The notes below the pieces were generated by a model. That model was not told where the DNA came from and did not search any database. It was given only the letters and a program-made list of their open reading frames with translations. A program made the translations under genes and the position numbers. 64,000 nucleotides of DNA from an uncultured Coriobacteriaceae bacterium (GTDB lineage Bacteria > Actinomycetota > Coriobacteriia > Coriobacteriales > Atopobiaceae), in assembly GCA_902773995.1 (NCBI GenBank), contig CACYGL010000001.1, positions 62,001 to 126,000 on the forward strand, written 5' to 3'. This document shows, piece by piece, positions 7,994-21,561 of this stretch; the stretch's first letter is position 1; every line of letters starts with the position of its first letter.

Positions 7994-8022
7994 TTGACTA
8001 CGAACGGGTGTTCGTATATCAT
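7994..8022 (+). promoter_or_regulatory. recA promoter with LexA (SOS) box in the spacer
   Basis: The -35 TTGACT (7994-7999) and -10 TATCAT (8017-8022) are 17 bases apart. The spacer holds CGAACGGGTGTTCG (8001-8014), a perfect GAAC-N4-GTTC palindrome of the Gram-positive LexA type. LexA bound here would block RNA polymerase. LexA is encoded at 17807-18469. Confidence 0.85.
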
Positions 8023-8051: not shown

Positions 8052-9155
8052 ATGGCCAAGAGCAAGGGAACGGTCAAAGAGGTCAACCACCCCGAGACAA
8101 CTGAAGAGCGTGACAAGGCGCTCGAGGTCACCACCCAAGAGATTGAGAAGAAGTTTGGCAAGGGCGCCATCATGCGCTACGGCGATGACAGCGCCAGCTT
8201 GGAGGTCGAGGCTATCCCCACAGGTTCTCTGGCGCTCGATGCGGCCCTGGGAATCGGCGGTGTGCCTCGTGGGCGCATCGTCGAGATTTACGGCCCTGAG
8301 TCATCGGGCAAGACCACGCTCTCGCTGGAGATTCTGGCGGAGGCCCAGGCCATGGGCGGGGTCGTTGCCTTTATCGATGCCGAGCACGCGCTCGATCCCG
8401 GCTATGCGGCCCGCATCGGCGTGGATATTGACGAGGTGCTCATCTCCCAGCCAGATACGGGCGAGCAAGCGCTTGAGATCTGCGACATGCTGGTGCGCTC
8501 CGGTGCCATCGACGTTGTGGTCATCGACTCCGTGGCGGCACTTGTCCCGCGCGCTGAGATTGAGGGGGAGATTGGCGACACAACGGTAGGCCTCCAGGCG
8601 CGCCTTATGAGCCAGGCCCTTCGCAAGCTCGCTGGATCGCTCTCCAAGTCAAACACCACCTGCATCTTTATCAACCAGTTGCGCGAGAAGATCGGCGTCA
8701 TGTTTGGTAACCCCGAGACCACGCCCGGTGGCCGCGCGCTCAAGTTCTTCTCGTCCGTGCGCATGGACATCAGGCGCGTGGACAGCATCAAGGTCAATGG
8801 CGAGGTCGTTGGCAACCGCGTGAGGGTCAAGGTCGTCAAGAACAAGGTAGCTCCGCCGTTTAAGTCTGCTGAGTTCGACATCATGTACGGCACGGGCATC
8901 TCCAAGGAGGGCTCGGTGCTCGACATGGCGGTCGAGTACCAGATTGTCGACAAGTCCGGATCCTGGTTCACATACGAGGGCGAGCGGCTTGGCCAGGGCC
9001 GTGAGGCGGCCAAGGCCTTCTTGGCTTCCAACCCAGATCTCATGGAGGAGATTGATCACAAGGTTCGCGTTGCTTGTGGCCTCGTGCTTGGCGACGAGCG
9101 CGTTGGCGAGCCTGTCGAGGGTGCAGATTCCAACGCAGAGGGCACTGAGAAGTGA
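8052..9155 (+). CDS. recA: Recombinase RecA
   Basis: A 367-residue RecA that forms ATP-dependent filaments on single-stranded DNA for recombination and for triggering LexA self-cleavage. Walker [10 protein letters not shown] lies at ~80-88. [19 protein letters not shown] is the Walker B region, and L2 contains [17 protein letters not shown] followed by [13 protein letters not shown]. The C-terminus is acidic. The start is preceded by GAGGAG, and the stop overlaps the GTG start of recX. Control by the SOS box at 8001-8014 is expected. Confidence 0.98.
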
Positions 9156-17015: not shown

Positions 17016-17804
17016 CTAAACCACACCCGTGAGCAGGAGCAGAACGGGTTGGTGTATTACATAGACGAGAAGCGCGTGACGACCCACAAAGTTGAGTGGG
17101 GGGACGTTGGCGTTGATGGCCCATTCGGAGTACCCGCGCTCTTTGAACCATGCGCCCATGGAAGCCCCGGCAAGGTACATGAACACAAAGGGGATGAGCG
17201 GATAGTAGTCTCCCGACGAGAATCCCGGTCCAGGAATCCCTAACCATGCAAGCCCCGGAACGCTATAGATGGCGTGGGGGAGAGCAACCGAGAGCGGACC
17301 GATACCAATCGTTCCAGAGGGTATCCCCAGCGCCAGCAGGAAGCAGACAAAGAGGGCAGATGCCGCAATTGGTCCCCTTGGAAGGCACTTGGCCTTTCCG
17401 AGTGCCCATGCCACCAGCGTGCAGGCTGACATGCAGTAGATGATGCCAAACGATATCGGGGTATCAACCGCGGCAAGAGCCGTGACTGCATAGATGGCAA
17501 GGGCAACGGCGCCGTAGGTGAGGCCACGCCTGAGGTTGCTTCTTGAAAGCGTGCACATGCAGCCTGCTACAAACAGGAAGGTCCATGAGATGCTTGCCCG
17601 CCAGATGTCCTGTAGGGGAGGGGCAAACCAAGGTAAGTCCACGCCCGCGAGGAACCGTAGGTCATAGCAGAGGTGGAAGAGTACCATCGAGATGACGGAG
17701 AATCCCCTCACTGCGTCGAAGATGCCAATCCTTCTCCGTTGGCCCTTGCTGCCTTTGGCAAAGCCTGAACTCTGCATGTCGCCTGCACGGGATGGTTCTG
17801 CCAT
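17016..17804 (-). CDS. HGSNAT-type (DUF1624) integral membrane acyltransferase
   Basis: A 262-residue polytopic membrane protein. RIGIFDAVRGFSVISMVLFH near the N-terminus is the signature of the heparan-alpha-glucosaminide N-acetyltransferase catalytic domain (formerly DUF1624). About seven hydrophobic helices follow, ending NFVGRHALLVYVIHQPVLLL. The substrate in bacteria is unknown, but acetylation of a surface glycan is the usual guess. The ATG is only 2 bases after the lexA stop on the same strand and lacks a clear ribosome site. It is therefore probably expressed by coupling from the lexA message and could respond to DNA damage. Confidence 0.8.
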   Translation of the reverse strand: MAEPSRAGDMQSSGFAKGSKGQRRRIGIFDAVRGFSVISMVLFHLCYDLRFLAGVDLPWFAPPLQDIWRASISWTFLFVAGCMCTLSRSNLRRGLTYGAVALAIYAVTALAAVDTPISFGIIYCMSACTLVAWALGKAKCLPRGPIAASALFVCFLLALGIPSGTIGIGPLSVALPHAIYSVPGLAWLGIPGPGFSSGDYYPLIPFVFMYLAGASMGAWFKERGYSEWAINANVPPLNFVGRHALLVYVIHQPVLLLLTGVV

Positions 17805-17806
17805 AG

Positions 17807-18469
17807 CTAGGAGAGACTGCGGATGAGTGCCGTCACGCGACCGAGAATGACCGGGTTATCCGCGTAGATGGGGCTCATGTGGTCATTCTCGGGCTGGAGT
17901 CGAATGCGGTCCTTCTCCCGATAGAAGGTCTTGACCGTTGCGGAGTCATCGATAAGAGCAACGACTATCTCTCCGTCATGAGCGTCGTGCTGCTCTTTTA
18001 CCACGATATAGTCACCATCGAAGATTCCAGCATTGATCATCGACTCGCCTCGAACACGCAGAATAAACGAGCTGGCATCGCCCACAATGCTTGTGGGGAG
18101 TGTGAGCGTCTCTTCGACGTTCTGCTCGGCGAGGATGGGTACGCCCGCAGCCACGCGGCCAACGAGAGGCAAAGTAATCGAATTCTTGTCAACGTCCTCC
18201 TGCACGGCGACAAGCTTCTCTTGGGCGCTGCCATCCTCTGACACCTGCTTGTCAGGAACAACTTCAATTGTGCGAGGCTTCTTTGGGTCCCTGCTGATGA
18301 GGCCCATCTCCTCAAGAACCTTGAGATGCATGTGGACCGTCGACGGCGAGGCAAGGCCTACAGCAGCGCCTATCTCCCTCACCGAGGGGGGATAGCCGTG
18401 CTCGTCCGTGTATGAGCAGATGAAGTCATAGATGGCCCTTTGGCGCTTGCTGAGCTTTCCCTTTGACAT
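17807..18469 (-). CDS. lexA: SOS repressor LexA
   Basis: A 220-residue repressor. The N-terminal winged helix contains YPPSVREIGAAVGLASPSTV. The self-cleavage site is Ala108-Gly109 in RVAAGVP, and the Ser-Lys dyad is Ser143 (GESMINAG) with Lys180 (SATVKTFYRE). The start ATG at 18469 has GAGGAG upstream. An upstream in-frame start at 18520 would add 17 residues and is unlikely. It represses recA, the divergent LysM gene and itself through boxes at 8001-8014 and 18519-18582. Confidence 0.96.
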   Translation of the reverse strand: MSKGKLSKRQRAIYDFICSYTDEHGYPPSVREIGAAVGLASPSTVHMHLKVLEEMGLISRDPKKPRTIEVVPDKQVSEDGSAQEKLVAVQEDVDKNSITLPLVGRVAAGVPILAEQNVEETLTLPTSIVGDASSFILRVRGESMINAGIFDGDYIVVKEQHDAHDGEIVVALIDDSATVKTFYREKDRIRLQPENDHMSPIYADNPVILGRVTALIRSLS

Positions 18470-18491
18470 GGCGTCTCCTCTCGTCGGGTCA

Positions 18492-18582
18492 ATAGTACTC
18501 TTGTCCCTGAACACTTGCAAACAAATGTTCGAATTAGACTTGACACGAACAAATGTACGTAGATACTAGAGTACAGATGTTC
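18492..18582. promoter_or_regulatory. Divergent lexA / LysM-gene promoters with three LexA boxes
   Basis: The minus-strand lexA promoter reads TTGCAA (18515-18520), 17 bases, TACTAT (18492-18497). The plus-strand promoter reads TTGACA (18540-18545), 16 bases, GATACT (18562-18567). Three near-palindromes of the GAAC-N4-GTTC type occur: AAACAAATGTTC (18519-18530, overlapping the lexA -35), GAACAAATGTAC (18547-18558, in the plus-strand spacer) and GTACAGATGTTC (18571-18582, near the plus-strand start point). Each has one mismatch, unlike the perfect recA box. This is the classical layout of an autoregulated lexA with a divergent SOS gene. Confidence 0.82.
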
Positions 18583-18664
18583 GGTCCCTAACGCAAGGCA
18601 CTAATTTCTGTCCCGCGTGGCAGCTATAAAGGTTCCCGATAAGCACACCAGAGGGGAGCACATA

Positions 18665-19114
18665 ATGACTAACGCTAATCGTATGTTTGGTACCGAGGGC
18701 TCTTCGGCTCTTGTTCCTTCCTATCCTTCGCTCATGCTTCTTGAGGGAGGCGCGGGTAAGAGGACCTCTGGAGTTGCTCGTCGTGCCCAGGGACAGACGC
18801 CTTATCATCAGGCAGCCTCTCGTCTAGACGTCTTTACCGTTGTCGTCTGCACGCTGCTTGTTGCTGCGGGGCTTTTTGGCGCTCTTGTCGCAGGCAATGC
18901 CGCCATCGCCTCCCGTAAGGATGCGGCTCTTTCGTCAATTCCGACTCAAGATGTTGTGGTTGAGCCTGGTGATTCCGTTTGGGGCCTTGCTTCTCAGTAT
19001 CAGGTAGATGGTTACAGTACGGCAGAGCTTGCGCAGTGGATCACCGAGAAGAACTCTCTCACCACGTCTACCCTTCAACCCGGTCAGTCGTTGCTGGTTC
19101 CCGCATCACGCTAA
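18665..19114 (+). CDS. LysM membrane protein, probable SOS cell-division inhibitor (YneA-like)
   Basis: 149 residues: a cytoplasmic N-terminus (1-54), one transmembrane helix (~55-78, VFTVVVCTLLVAAGLFGALV) and an outer LysM domain (~97-146, VVVEPGDSVWGLASQY to LQPGQSLLVP). The ATG at 18665 follows GAGGGGAGCACATA. It is divergent from lexA under three SOS boxes. Bacillus yneA and the mycobacterial Rv2719c gene have the same architecture and sit beside lexA; they delay division after DNA damage. Sequence resemblance outside LysM is weak by eye, so function rests on architecture, regulation and position. Confidence 0.75.
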   Translation: MTNANRMFGTEGSSALVPSYPSLMLLEGGAGKRTSGVARRAQGQTPYHQAASRLDVFTVVVCTLLVAAGLFGALVAGNAAIASRKDAALSSIPTQDVVVEPGDSVWGLASQYQVDGYSTAELAQWITEKNSLTTSTLQPGQSLLVPASR

Positions 19115-19240
19115 AGCGATTTACTGGGCTTGCTTGTGGTCAGATTCAGGAGTCTGCGTAGTCTTGCCACATCGTTTTCGTTTCCAGTTTGGATTTATAG
19201 AGTCCTTTGTGGTGGGATTTTGGACGCTTTGTGTTAAGTT

Positions 19241-19259
19241 CCTAATGGAGTCCATTAGG
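19241..19259. promoter_or_regulatory. Palindrome overlapping the nrdR ribosome-binding site
   Basis: CCTAATGGA (19241-19249) and TCCATTAGG (19251-19259) form a perfect 9-bp inverted repeat around a single G. The last three bases are shared with the AGGAGG ribosome site (19257-19262) of nrdR. It could be a DNA operator or an RNA fold that hides the ribosome site. It does not resemble the NrdR box of nrd promoters. Confidence 0.55.
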
Positions 19260-19266
19260 AGGTTTG

Positions 19267-19716
19267 ATGCGCTGTCCAAAATGCGGGTGCGAGGAGTCGA
19301 AGGTTGTTGACTCTAGGCCATCGGAGAGCAACGACGCCATTCGTCGTCGACGCGAGTGCGTCAAATGCGGCTATCGGTTCACGACGTACGAGCGCCGTGA
19401 GGAAATGCCTCTCCTTGTGGTCAAGAAAGATGGGCGCAAGGAGACGTTCGATCGGCAGAAGCTCATGCGTGGGCTCTTGGCTGCTACCGTTAAGCGGAGC
19501 GTGCCTGTCGAGGCGCTTGATAACCTCATCGATGACATCGAATCGGAGTTGAGGGACGAGGGCGTTAATGAGGTCTCCTCGCATGACCTGGGAAGCATGG
19601 TCCTCAAGCGTTTGGTAGACGTAGACAAGGTGGCGTACATTCGCTTCGCGTCGGTCTATAGGGACTTCAAGGACGTTGATGAGTTCAGCGAGGAGCTGAG
19701 GAGCCTCAATAAATGA
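19267..19716 (+). CDS. nrdR: Transcriptional repressor NrdR
   Basis: 149 residues. The zinc ribbon uses Cys3, Cys6, Cys31 and Cys34 ([10 protein letters not shown] and [16 protein letters not shown]). An ATP-cone follows (~49-139, [18 protein letters not shown] and [13 protein letters not shown]). NrdR senses ATP/dATP and represses ribonucleotide reductase operons. The ATG at 19267 follows AGGAGG by four bases; a TTG directly before it is in frame but not needed. The gene overlaps dut, so repressor and dUTPase, both dNTP-pool functions, are co-translated. Confidence 0.95.
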
Positions 19717-20159
19717 TGGATAATAAGGTCGTACTTCCCATCAAGCGTCTTGACCCAACAGTAGAGCTCCCAAGCTACGCTTATGATGGTGATGCTGGTC
19801 TCGATTTGCGCTCAAACGAGGATGTTACGCTTGCGCCCTTTGAGCGTCGGCTTGTCGGAACCGGTCTCGCCATTGCCATACCTGAGGGGTATGCAGGCTT
19901 TGTCCAGCCCAGGAGTGGACTCGCCCTTCGCGAGGGACTGTCCATGGCAAATACGCCCGGCCTCATAGATGCCCACTACCGTGGCGAGCTCAAGGTGTGC
20001 GCAATCAACCTCGACCCATCCAAGAGCATCCACATCGAGCGCGGCGAGAGAATCGCTCAGCTCGTCATTCAACAGGTCCCTGTCGTCTCCCCTCTGGAGG
20101 TCGATGAGCTCGATGAGACCGATCGCGGTGCCGGTGGTTTTGGCTCGAGTGGCGTCTAA
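19713..20159 (+). CDS. dut: dUTP diphosphatase
   Basis: 148 residues with the trimeric dUTPase motifs in order: [10 protein letters not shown] (motif 1), [11 protein letters not shown] (2), [15 protein letters not shown] (3), [10 protein letters not shown] (4) and the glycine-rich tail [10 protein letters not shown] (5). It hydrolyses dUTP to dUMP, keeping uracil out of DNA and feeding dTMP synthesis. The ATG overlaps the nrdR stop; a second ATG follows directly. GCCACA and TGTGGC (20187-20205) form a short hairpin after the gene. Confidence 0.95.
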
Positions 20160-20247
20160 TCCTACTCATCTATTCGCTCTGTTGCTGCCACACTTTGTCT
20201 GTGGCTTGTGACATAGGCCTTGCTGTTCGGGAAGAAAGGAAGGGCAC

Positions 20248-21561
20248 GTGGAGAAGTTCTTCAAGATGGGGGAGAGAGGGTCGTCGACGGGACAGGAGAT
20301 TCGTGCCGGACTCACCACTTTCCTCGCCATGGCGTACATCATCGCCGTCAACCCCTCGCTGCTCGCTGCAGCCGGTGTTCCTATGAACGCTGCGGTTACC
20401 TCGACCTGCGTTGGGGCCGGCATCATGACCATTTTCATGGGCCTCTTTGCCAATAGGCCCCTTGCCTGCGCCTCCGGCATGGGCATCAATGCAGTGGTCG
20501 CATATACCCTCGCCGCGCTTAACGGTGCGGATTGGCAGGTCTCAATGGCAGTCATCTTTGTTGAGGGCTGCGCCATTCTCATTCTGGTTCTCTGCGGCCT
20601 TCGCGAGGCCATCATGGATGCCATTCCCGTCTCGCTTCGTCACGCCATCTCTGTTGGCCTTGGCCTCTTCATTGCAATGATTGGCCTCGCCGATGGCGGC
20701 ATCATCGTTGCTAACGAGTCCACCATGGTTTCCTTTGGTGATGTCACAAGCCCCACGTTTCTCGTCGGCCTTATCTCCATTGTTGCCACGGTCATTCTTT
20801 ACTCGATGAACATCAAGGGTTCCATCCTCATTGGCATCATCATCGCTGTGCTTTGTGGTATCCCCCTTGGCGTAACGCAGATGCCCTCGGGCATTGTCTC
20901 CGCCCTCGACTTCTCGTCCTTTGGTGCCCCCTTCATGGCAGATTCAACGGGTACCGTTGCAGTCGTCAAGGTTCTTACCACGCCAATCCTTCTCGTCTTT
21001 GCATTCTCCCTCATGATGTCGGACTTCTTTGACACCATGGGTACTGCGATGGCCGTTGCCAAGCAGGGCGAGTTCTTGAACGAGGATGGAACCGTCGAGA
21101 ACATCCGAGAGATTCTGATTGCAGACTCTGCGGCAGCTGCCGTTGGTGGCCTTGTGGGTGCCTCTTCCATCACAACCTTCGTCGAGTCTGCTTCCGGCGC
21201 TGCCGATGGTGGTCGCACTGGCCTCACCTCTGTCTTCACCGGTGTTCTCTTCATCCTTGCAGCGTTCTTCGCTCCTGTGATCTCGGTTGTGAGCAGCGCT
21301 GCCACCTGCGGCGCCCTTGTTATCGTTGGCTTCCTCATGATGACTGACGTAGTCGACATCGACTGGACCGACCTCCTGGAGGGCTTCCCCGCCTTCATGG
21401 TTATCGCAGGTATCCCTCTTACGTACTCCATCTCCAACGGCATCGGCATGGGCTTTATCGCGTATGTCATCGTTGCCCTGGTCACTGGTCGTGCCAAGAA
21501 GATCAAGCCTCTCATGTGGGTCGCCACTGCAGCGTTTGTCGTCTATTTCCTGCTTTCCTAG
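20248..21561 (+). CDS. NCS2 family purine permease (AzgA/PbuG type)
   Basis: A 437-residue polytopic transporter starting at GTG 20248 after GAAAGGAAGG. STGQEIRAGLTTFLAMAYII and NPSLLAAAGVP at the N-terminus, GMGINAVVAYTLA, and the central FFDTMGTAMAVAKQGEFL place it in the AzgA-like branch of the NCS2 family. That branch imports adenine, guanine and hypoxanthine by proton symport. About 12 hydrophobic segments are visible. An 88-base gap separates it from dut, and no purine riboswitch is recognisable there. A uracil permease of the other NCS2 branch follows. Confidence 0.88.
   Translation: MEKFFKMGERGSSTGQEIRAGLTTFLAMAYIIAVNPSLLAAAGVPMNAAVTSTCVGAGIMTIFMGLFANRPLACASGMGINAVVAYTLAALNGADWQVSMAVIFVEGCAILILVLCGLREAIMDAIPVSLRHAISVGLGLFIAMIGLADGGIIVANESTMVSFGDVTSPTFLVGLISIVATVILYSMNIKGSILIGIIIAVLCGIPLGVTQMPSGIVSALDFSSFGAPFMADSTGTVAVVKVLTTPILLVFAFSLMMSDFFDTMGTAMAVAKQGEFLNEDGTVENIREILIADSAAAAVGGLVGASSITTFVESASGAADGGRTGLTSVFTGVLFILAAFFAPVISVVSSAATCGALVIVGFLMMTDVVDIDWTDLLEGFPAFMVIAGIPLTYSISNGIGMGFIAYVIVALVTGRAKKIKPLMWVATAAFVVYFLLS

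Follow-up and report, generated by a model that had tools for sequence, protein, structure and literature searches.

A lexA-linked LysM membrane protein as a probable SOS-induced division inhibitor in Coriobacteriia, and its LysM-less relatives

The lexA–nrdR locus and its operator

The window, by which we mean the whole 64,000-nucleotide stretch analysed here, carries lexA on its reverse strand (17807..18469; 220 aa; TIGR00498, 221.7 bits against a cut-off of 110.95, with PF00717 and PF01726). By eye, its product shows what we take to be the marks of an active LexA, an Ala-Gly site for cleavage together with the Ser and Lys. Divergent from lexA, across a spacer of 195 bp, lies a forward-strand gene of the YneA/ChiZ type for a protein of 149 aa (18665..19114; ATG at 18665, stop at 19112–19114), preceded by a ribosome-binding-like AGGGGAG and encoding a LysM domain and one predicted transmembrane (TM) helix; nrdR follows directly on the same strand (19267..19716; TIGR00244, 187.4 bits, cut-off 124.65). 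An earlier note on this DNA, covering 18492–19114 (spacer plus gene, the coding part being 18665–19114), had described a one-TM LysM protein that shares a promoter region with lexA, and this is borne out by the match to PF01476, the helix predicted at residues 53–90 and the divergent arrangement. There is also a membrane protein reading frame (17016–17804) immediately past lexA, in the same orientation. A search of Rfam with 17500–21000 gave no match, and neither did a search of a phage collection.

All three LexA-type boxes of the locus, judged against CGAAC-N4-GTTCG, lie in the spacer: box 1 (CAAACAAATGTTCG, 18518..18531) and box 2 (CGAACAAATGTACG, 18546..18559), each with one mismatch, and box 3 (AGTACAGATGTTCG, 18570..18583), with two. 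Boxes had been reported at 18519, 18547 and 18571; they are real, but each starts one base lower. A divergent sigma-70-type promoter (TTGACA-16-GATACT, 18540..18567, forward strand; 10/12 matches) was the one found in the region, where 0.4 were expected. Box 2 fills the spacer of this promoter and box 3 sits over its likely transcription start, as had been proposed, but box 1 would overlap the −35 only of a weak lexA promoter candidate (TTGCAA-17-TACTAT, 18492..18520, reverse strand), one among several with 8/12 matches. Taken singly, sites of LexA-box quality are unremarkable (34 in the window versus 37.3 expected), whereas three boxes within a 66-bp stretch upstream of lexA correspond to a Poisson mean of ∼0.04 and a probability of ∼1e-5. 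We therefore rejected chance as their origin: single sites fit it, the cluster and the class-wide conservation described below do not.

A perfect LexA box (CGAACGGGTGTTCG, 8001..8014) lies ∼90 bp upstream of recA, whose match starts at window position 8106 (G000:C1:70106), on the same contig as lexA. The only other perfect box in the genome (G000:C40:25978–25991; positions 1501–1514 of stretch L002) is found ∼50–90 bp upstream of a gene pair, at 1567–1896 and 1871–2248 of that stretch, which by eye resembles a Phd/YefM-like antitoxin with a PIN-type toxin, and which is possibly an SOS-linked toxin–antitoxin module. Genome-wide, CGAAC-N4-GTTCG with at most one mismatch is far rarer than its reversed control (56 versus 346 sites), and many of these sites cluster in CGAAGG-like repeats on several contigs.

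The LysM protein and its distribution

The window protein has one LysM domain (PF01476, 31.7 bits, cut-off 20.9). In a structure predicted with AlphaFold2 from 41 class relatives, the helix spans residues 53–90 and is followed by LysM elements at 94–146 (mean pLDDT 83); the N-terminus, ∼50 residues before the helix that hold a G[TSN]xAL motif in the form GSSAL, is of low confidence (pLDDT ∼55). The topology would be a cytoplasmic N-terminus, a single TM and an extracytoplasmic LysM. LysM folds came out on top in a Foldseek comparison with the PDB (best E 6.5e-3, none below 0.001), and a profile search of PDB sequences returned LysM chains such as that of LytE.

The best NCBIfam match is YneA (NF010723), at 55.6 bits over residues 81–147. 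Because this is under the equivalog cut-off of 60 bits, we rejected YneA as an outright name, and none of 119 phylum genomes had a protein above that cut-off. The model was nevertheless matched by all 41 class members tested, so that the view in the earlier note that similarity is poor outside LysM could not be upheld. Identity to the window protein across our alignment (A1) was 20–43%.

We then compared lexA neighbourhoods across the class, presumably Coriobacteriia, in which a LysM protein is present in 104 of 149 genomes and lexA in 145. The comparison took in 140 of the 145 lexA genomes and the window, 141 neighbourhoods from 20 families; left out were G032, which is in pieces, and G091, G131 and G145, where contigs end, although G131 and G145 also have a divergent LysM gene. 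Such a gene was found in 103 of the 141, with nrdR directly behind it on the same strand every time (103/103; nrdR stop 200–662 bp past the LysM stop, at least one low value coming from a contig-cut stretch). A TM protein without LysM took its place beside lexA in 32 neighbourhoods, for 26 of which the stretch also matches NrdR on that strand, and in six neither kind was recognised; a TM-bearing product is thus present at 135 of 141 loci. The suggestion that the protein may be the checkpoint factor of its class fits the 103 LysM loci but is too broad for the LysM form, given the 32 without LysM and the six with nothing recognisable.

The operator is conserved across the class. In 131 of 141 neighbourhoods the region upstream of lexA has a box with one mismatch or none, compared with 1.1 expected from mononucleotide shuffling (97/103 with LysM, 28/32 LysM-less, 6/6 gene-less), and successive boxes are mostly spaced by 24–31 bp.

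Beyond the class, we ran the class LysM profile on one genome from each of 40 other families of the phylum. A LysM gene diverges from lexA in 18 of them and is absent there in 22. Among those with the gene, nrdR follows it on the same strand in seven, has the opposite orientation in four and is absent from the stretch in seven. One relative, with lexA and nrdR alongside, was found at 42 bits in L195, which we take to be Mycobacterium-like. The lexA / LysM / nrdR block would thus be common to Coriobacteriia and other actinobacterial families.

LysM-less products of the same slot

Two size groups stand out among the LysM-less proteins. Those of 73–128 aa occur in family f2 (17 of 20 genomes, none of which has the LysM form) and in two genomes of f1; microproteins of 36–38 aa, of two types, occur in nine genomes of f4 and f6. 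We take f1, f2 and f3 to be Atopobiaceae, Eggerthellaceae and Coriobacteriaceae. In 29 of the 32 the hydrophobic window ends 0–4 residues from the C-terminus, the exceptions being L115, L116 and L112, with 10, 20 and 22 residues beyond it. None of the five LysM-less proteins tested matched a Pfam or NCBIfam family.

We scanned the first 35 residues for G[TNS]xA[LRM], a motif picked after viewing the sequences. It was present in 14 of 16 f2 proteins (0.1 expected) and in the LysM forms of f1 (16/20; 0.34 expected) and f3 (23/24; 0.38 expected), as compared with 1 of 59 LysM proteins (0.87 expected) and 0 of 13 LysM-less proteins in other families. Of the two LysM-less f1 proteins, one had the motif at the scan and the other once its start was corrected. 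A less circular test used a profile of the 42 N-terminal residues of f2, which placed the LysM gene above every other reading-frame segment of its locus for 13 of 20 f1 and 12 of 24 f3 loci (0.5 expected in each) and in 0 of 59 elsewhere. Since the whole-length f2 profile reaches LysM genes only at E ∼1 or worse, the case for homology between the two forms is made by the N-terminal motif and the rank test; these indicate that, within the window's order, forms with and without LysM very probably have a common origin. In families outside that order the link consists of position, operator and helix.

Outside the window's order, a Glu directly precedes the TM helix in 33 of 57 LysM proteins (5.8 expected; two rows with no residues before the helix were dropped) and in 10 of 13 LysM-less proteins (2.4 expected). 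Within the order it is found in 4 of 44 LysM proteins (5.8 expected) and 3 of 19 LysM-less proteins, the window protein having Asp, and we rejected it as a universal signature. E6 is essential in B. subtilis YneA (PMC13396833); the resemblance of the TM-entry Glu to this residue, which was noticed by position and not by alignment with YneA, is a lead only.

The microproteins are, to judge from codon comparisons, under purifying selection. L103 and L107 differ by 22 synonymous and two nonsynonymous changes in 37 codons (pN/pS 0.03), and other microprotein pairs give 0.10–0.52. Pairs from f2 (0.33–0.78) and the LysM-less f1 pair (0.67) appear to be only mildly constrained, the higher values being soft because synonymous sites are saturated. 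A microprotein profile run on 396 class genomes recovered, at E < 1e-10, only its six source rows; matches at E 5e-4 to 0.1, in 20 genomes, were taken as chance.

On a quick LexA+NrdR tree of the 128 loci that have both genes, at least six changes between LysM and no LysM are needed (shuffled mean 19.6), and with gene-less rows pooled with the LysM-less ones, well supported branches require six. The tree itself gives no direction; loss is the simpler reading, because LysM occurs in most families and across the phylum.

Function of the slot product

Like the window protein, YneA of B. subtilis is linked to lexA and has one TM followed by LysM. The two differ, as compared through the NCBIfam model, in that the window protein scores under the equivalog cut-off, has ∼50 cytoplasmic residues before its helix and has nrdR as a neighbour. 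The earlier note had equated the layout with Bacillus lexA–yneA. The likeness holds, but the layout is equally mycobacterial, because nrdR lies directly behind the LysM gene throughout the class and an Rv2719c-nrdR-Rv2717c operon under LexA has been published for M. tuberculosis (PMC4181829). There, Rv2719c (ChiZ) is likewise divergent from lexA with nrdR behind it, and the spacer is described as containing several SOS boxes (PMC4181829, PMC8151990), of which a later paper gives one to lexA and another three to the operon next to it (PMC8151990). ChiZ, too, has one TM and a C-terminal LysM; the N-terminus of the window protein has its order-specific G[TSN]xAL motif instead. ChiZ is presented as a cell wall hydrolase with FtsI and FtsQ as interaction partners, and its LysM, according to the same review, is apparently dispensable (PMC3989709). 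The lexA-linked LysM kind is therefore already known; what is new is this member and the class Coriobacteriia. Among open-licence papers on LexA in the class, Eggerthella or Collinsella, none was, judged by title, an SOS study of Coriobacteriia.

Taking the sequence together with known SOS biology and the YneA analogy, we are fairly confident that the window gene encodes an SOS-induced division brake of the lexA-linked YneA/ChiZ kind. It has the layout of such LysM inhibitors, being adjacent to lexA, with boxes on its promoter (at the level of sequence) and a TM followed by LysM. In an undamaged cell, LexA bound to the three boxes across both promoters would repress lexA and the LysM–nrdR unit. 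On DNA damage, RecA would provoke LexA self-cleavage and the divergent promoter would open, a step with which the position of recA itself behind a perfect LexA box agrees. The product would enter the membrane through its one TM helix, leaving the N-terminus on the cytoplasmic side and LysM on the outer one. The TM of B. subtilis YneA docks on TM7 of FtsW, and its LysM blocks nascent septal glycan (PMC13396833). By analogy, this mechanism appears to be the best model for the window protein, whose helix would bind FtsW, the septal synthase, encoded in the genome by a gene scoring above its cut-off, while LysM would seize nascent glycan. Septum synthesis would then be halted until LexA returns, and the co-transcribed nrdR may tune dNTP supply. 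The YneA score under the cut-off, the TM-entry Glu unconserved in the window's order and the two mismatches of box 3 count against reading the protein as a brake.

If the protein were instead a SOS wall protein of the ChiZ kind, it would mainly remodel or hydrolyse the wall under stress, and a delay in division would be a side effect. LysM binds peptidoglycan, and the description of ChiZ as a hydrolase with divisome contacts (PMC3989709) would suit such a role; we nevertheless regard it as unlikely, because Pfam and NCBIfam reveal no catalytic domain besides LysM in the window protein, and because tail-anchored LysM-less relatives, which would be unable to attach to the wall or cut it, retain the operator. 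We give very little credence to the idea that what the slot conserves is mainly the nrdR transcript, the small membrane protein being a fast-evolving, near-neutral passenger under the LexA promoter. Low identity among the proteins would agree with it, as would the six loci where the gene is absent, nrdR lies close to lexA in some, and boxes are kept; a TM protein at nearly every locus, the scarcity of nonsynonymous changes between L103 and L107, and an N-terminal motif common to LysM and LysM-less forms all argue the other way. That the gene encodes a LexA-independent or constitutive LysM envelope protein, sharing the spacer with lexA by chance, is scarcely credible with boxes 2 and 3 lying on the divergent promoter and boxes kept over 20 families, even though LysM proteins are common and Rv2719c in M. 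tuberculosis reportedly, in work by Brooks et al. in 2006 cited in PMC13396833, also responds to damage without RecA.

A brake acting exactly as YneA does would not account for the whole class. The LysM step of the model is not general there, since LysM has been lost in 32 of 141 neighbourhoods and the whole gene in six, and its second step breaks down for relatives without LysM. In the Coriobacteriia slot, a domain that is essential in Bacillus YneA thus seems to have been dispensed with repeatedly. Tentatively, and with more doubt than conviction, we suggest that the lexA–nrdR slot holds one evolving brake that acts through its membrane helix and the cytoplasmic flank of that helix, not through LysM. 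On this view there would have been six or more losses or gains of LysM, yielding the tail-anchored proteins of f2 and, independently, the microproteins of f4 and f6, which would still stop division via FtsW, in the membrane or from the cytoplasmic side.

DivS of C. glutamicum, an SOS-induced division suppressor encoded beside lexA and having one TM (PMC3989709, PMC6851548), resembles the window protein in these respects. Unlike it, DivS has no LysM and is closer there to the LysM-less coriobacterial forms; a DivS-like identity was rejected for the window protein, which has LysM. Two small membrane proteins that inhibit division in the SOS response, SosA of S. aureus and SidA of C. crescentus, may be compared with the LysM-less forms; SidA is not known to have a LysM. 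SosA, as described in PMC6851548, also has no LysM and requires its extracytoplasmic part, which is missing from 29 of the 32 LysM-less forms. The apparent dispensability of LysM in ChiZ points the same way as the LysM-less forms, and the need of SosA for its outer part points the opposite way.

The brake reading of the window gene would add Coriobacteriia to the bacteria with a small-membrane-protein SOS checkpoint. The LysM-less series offers ready natural constructs for studying the role of LysM in YneA-type inhibitors and whether FtsW can be blocked by a TM helix on its own, and, if a helix-based brake is true, it would be a natural truncation series set against the rule from YneA and SosA of an indispensable extracytoplasmic part.

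Two minor observations concern the edges of the survey. The six gene-less loci (L038, L042, L052, L054, L055 and L105) retain LexA boxes between lexA and nrdR, so that nrdR may be under direct SOS control in these genomes. Most LysM proteins of f5–f16, outside the window's order (L121, L123, L125 and others), end alike, in an Ala-rich stretch often with Arg as the last residue, and this shared tail might be a protease or anchoring signal.
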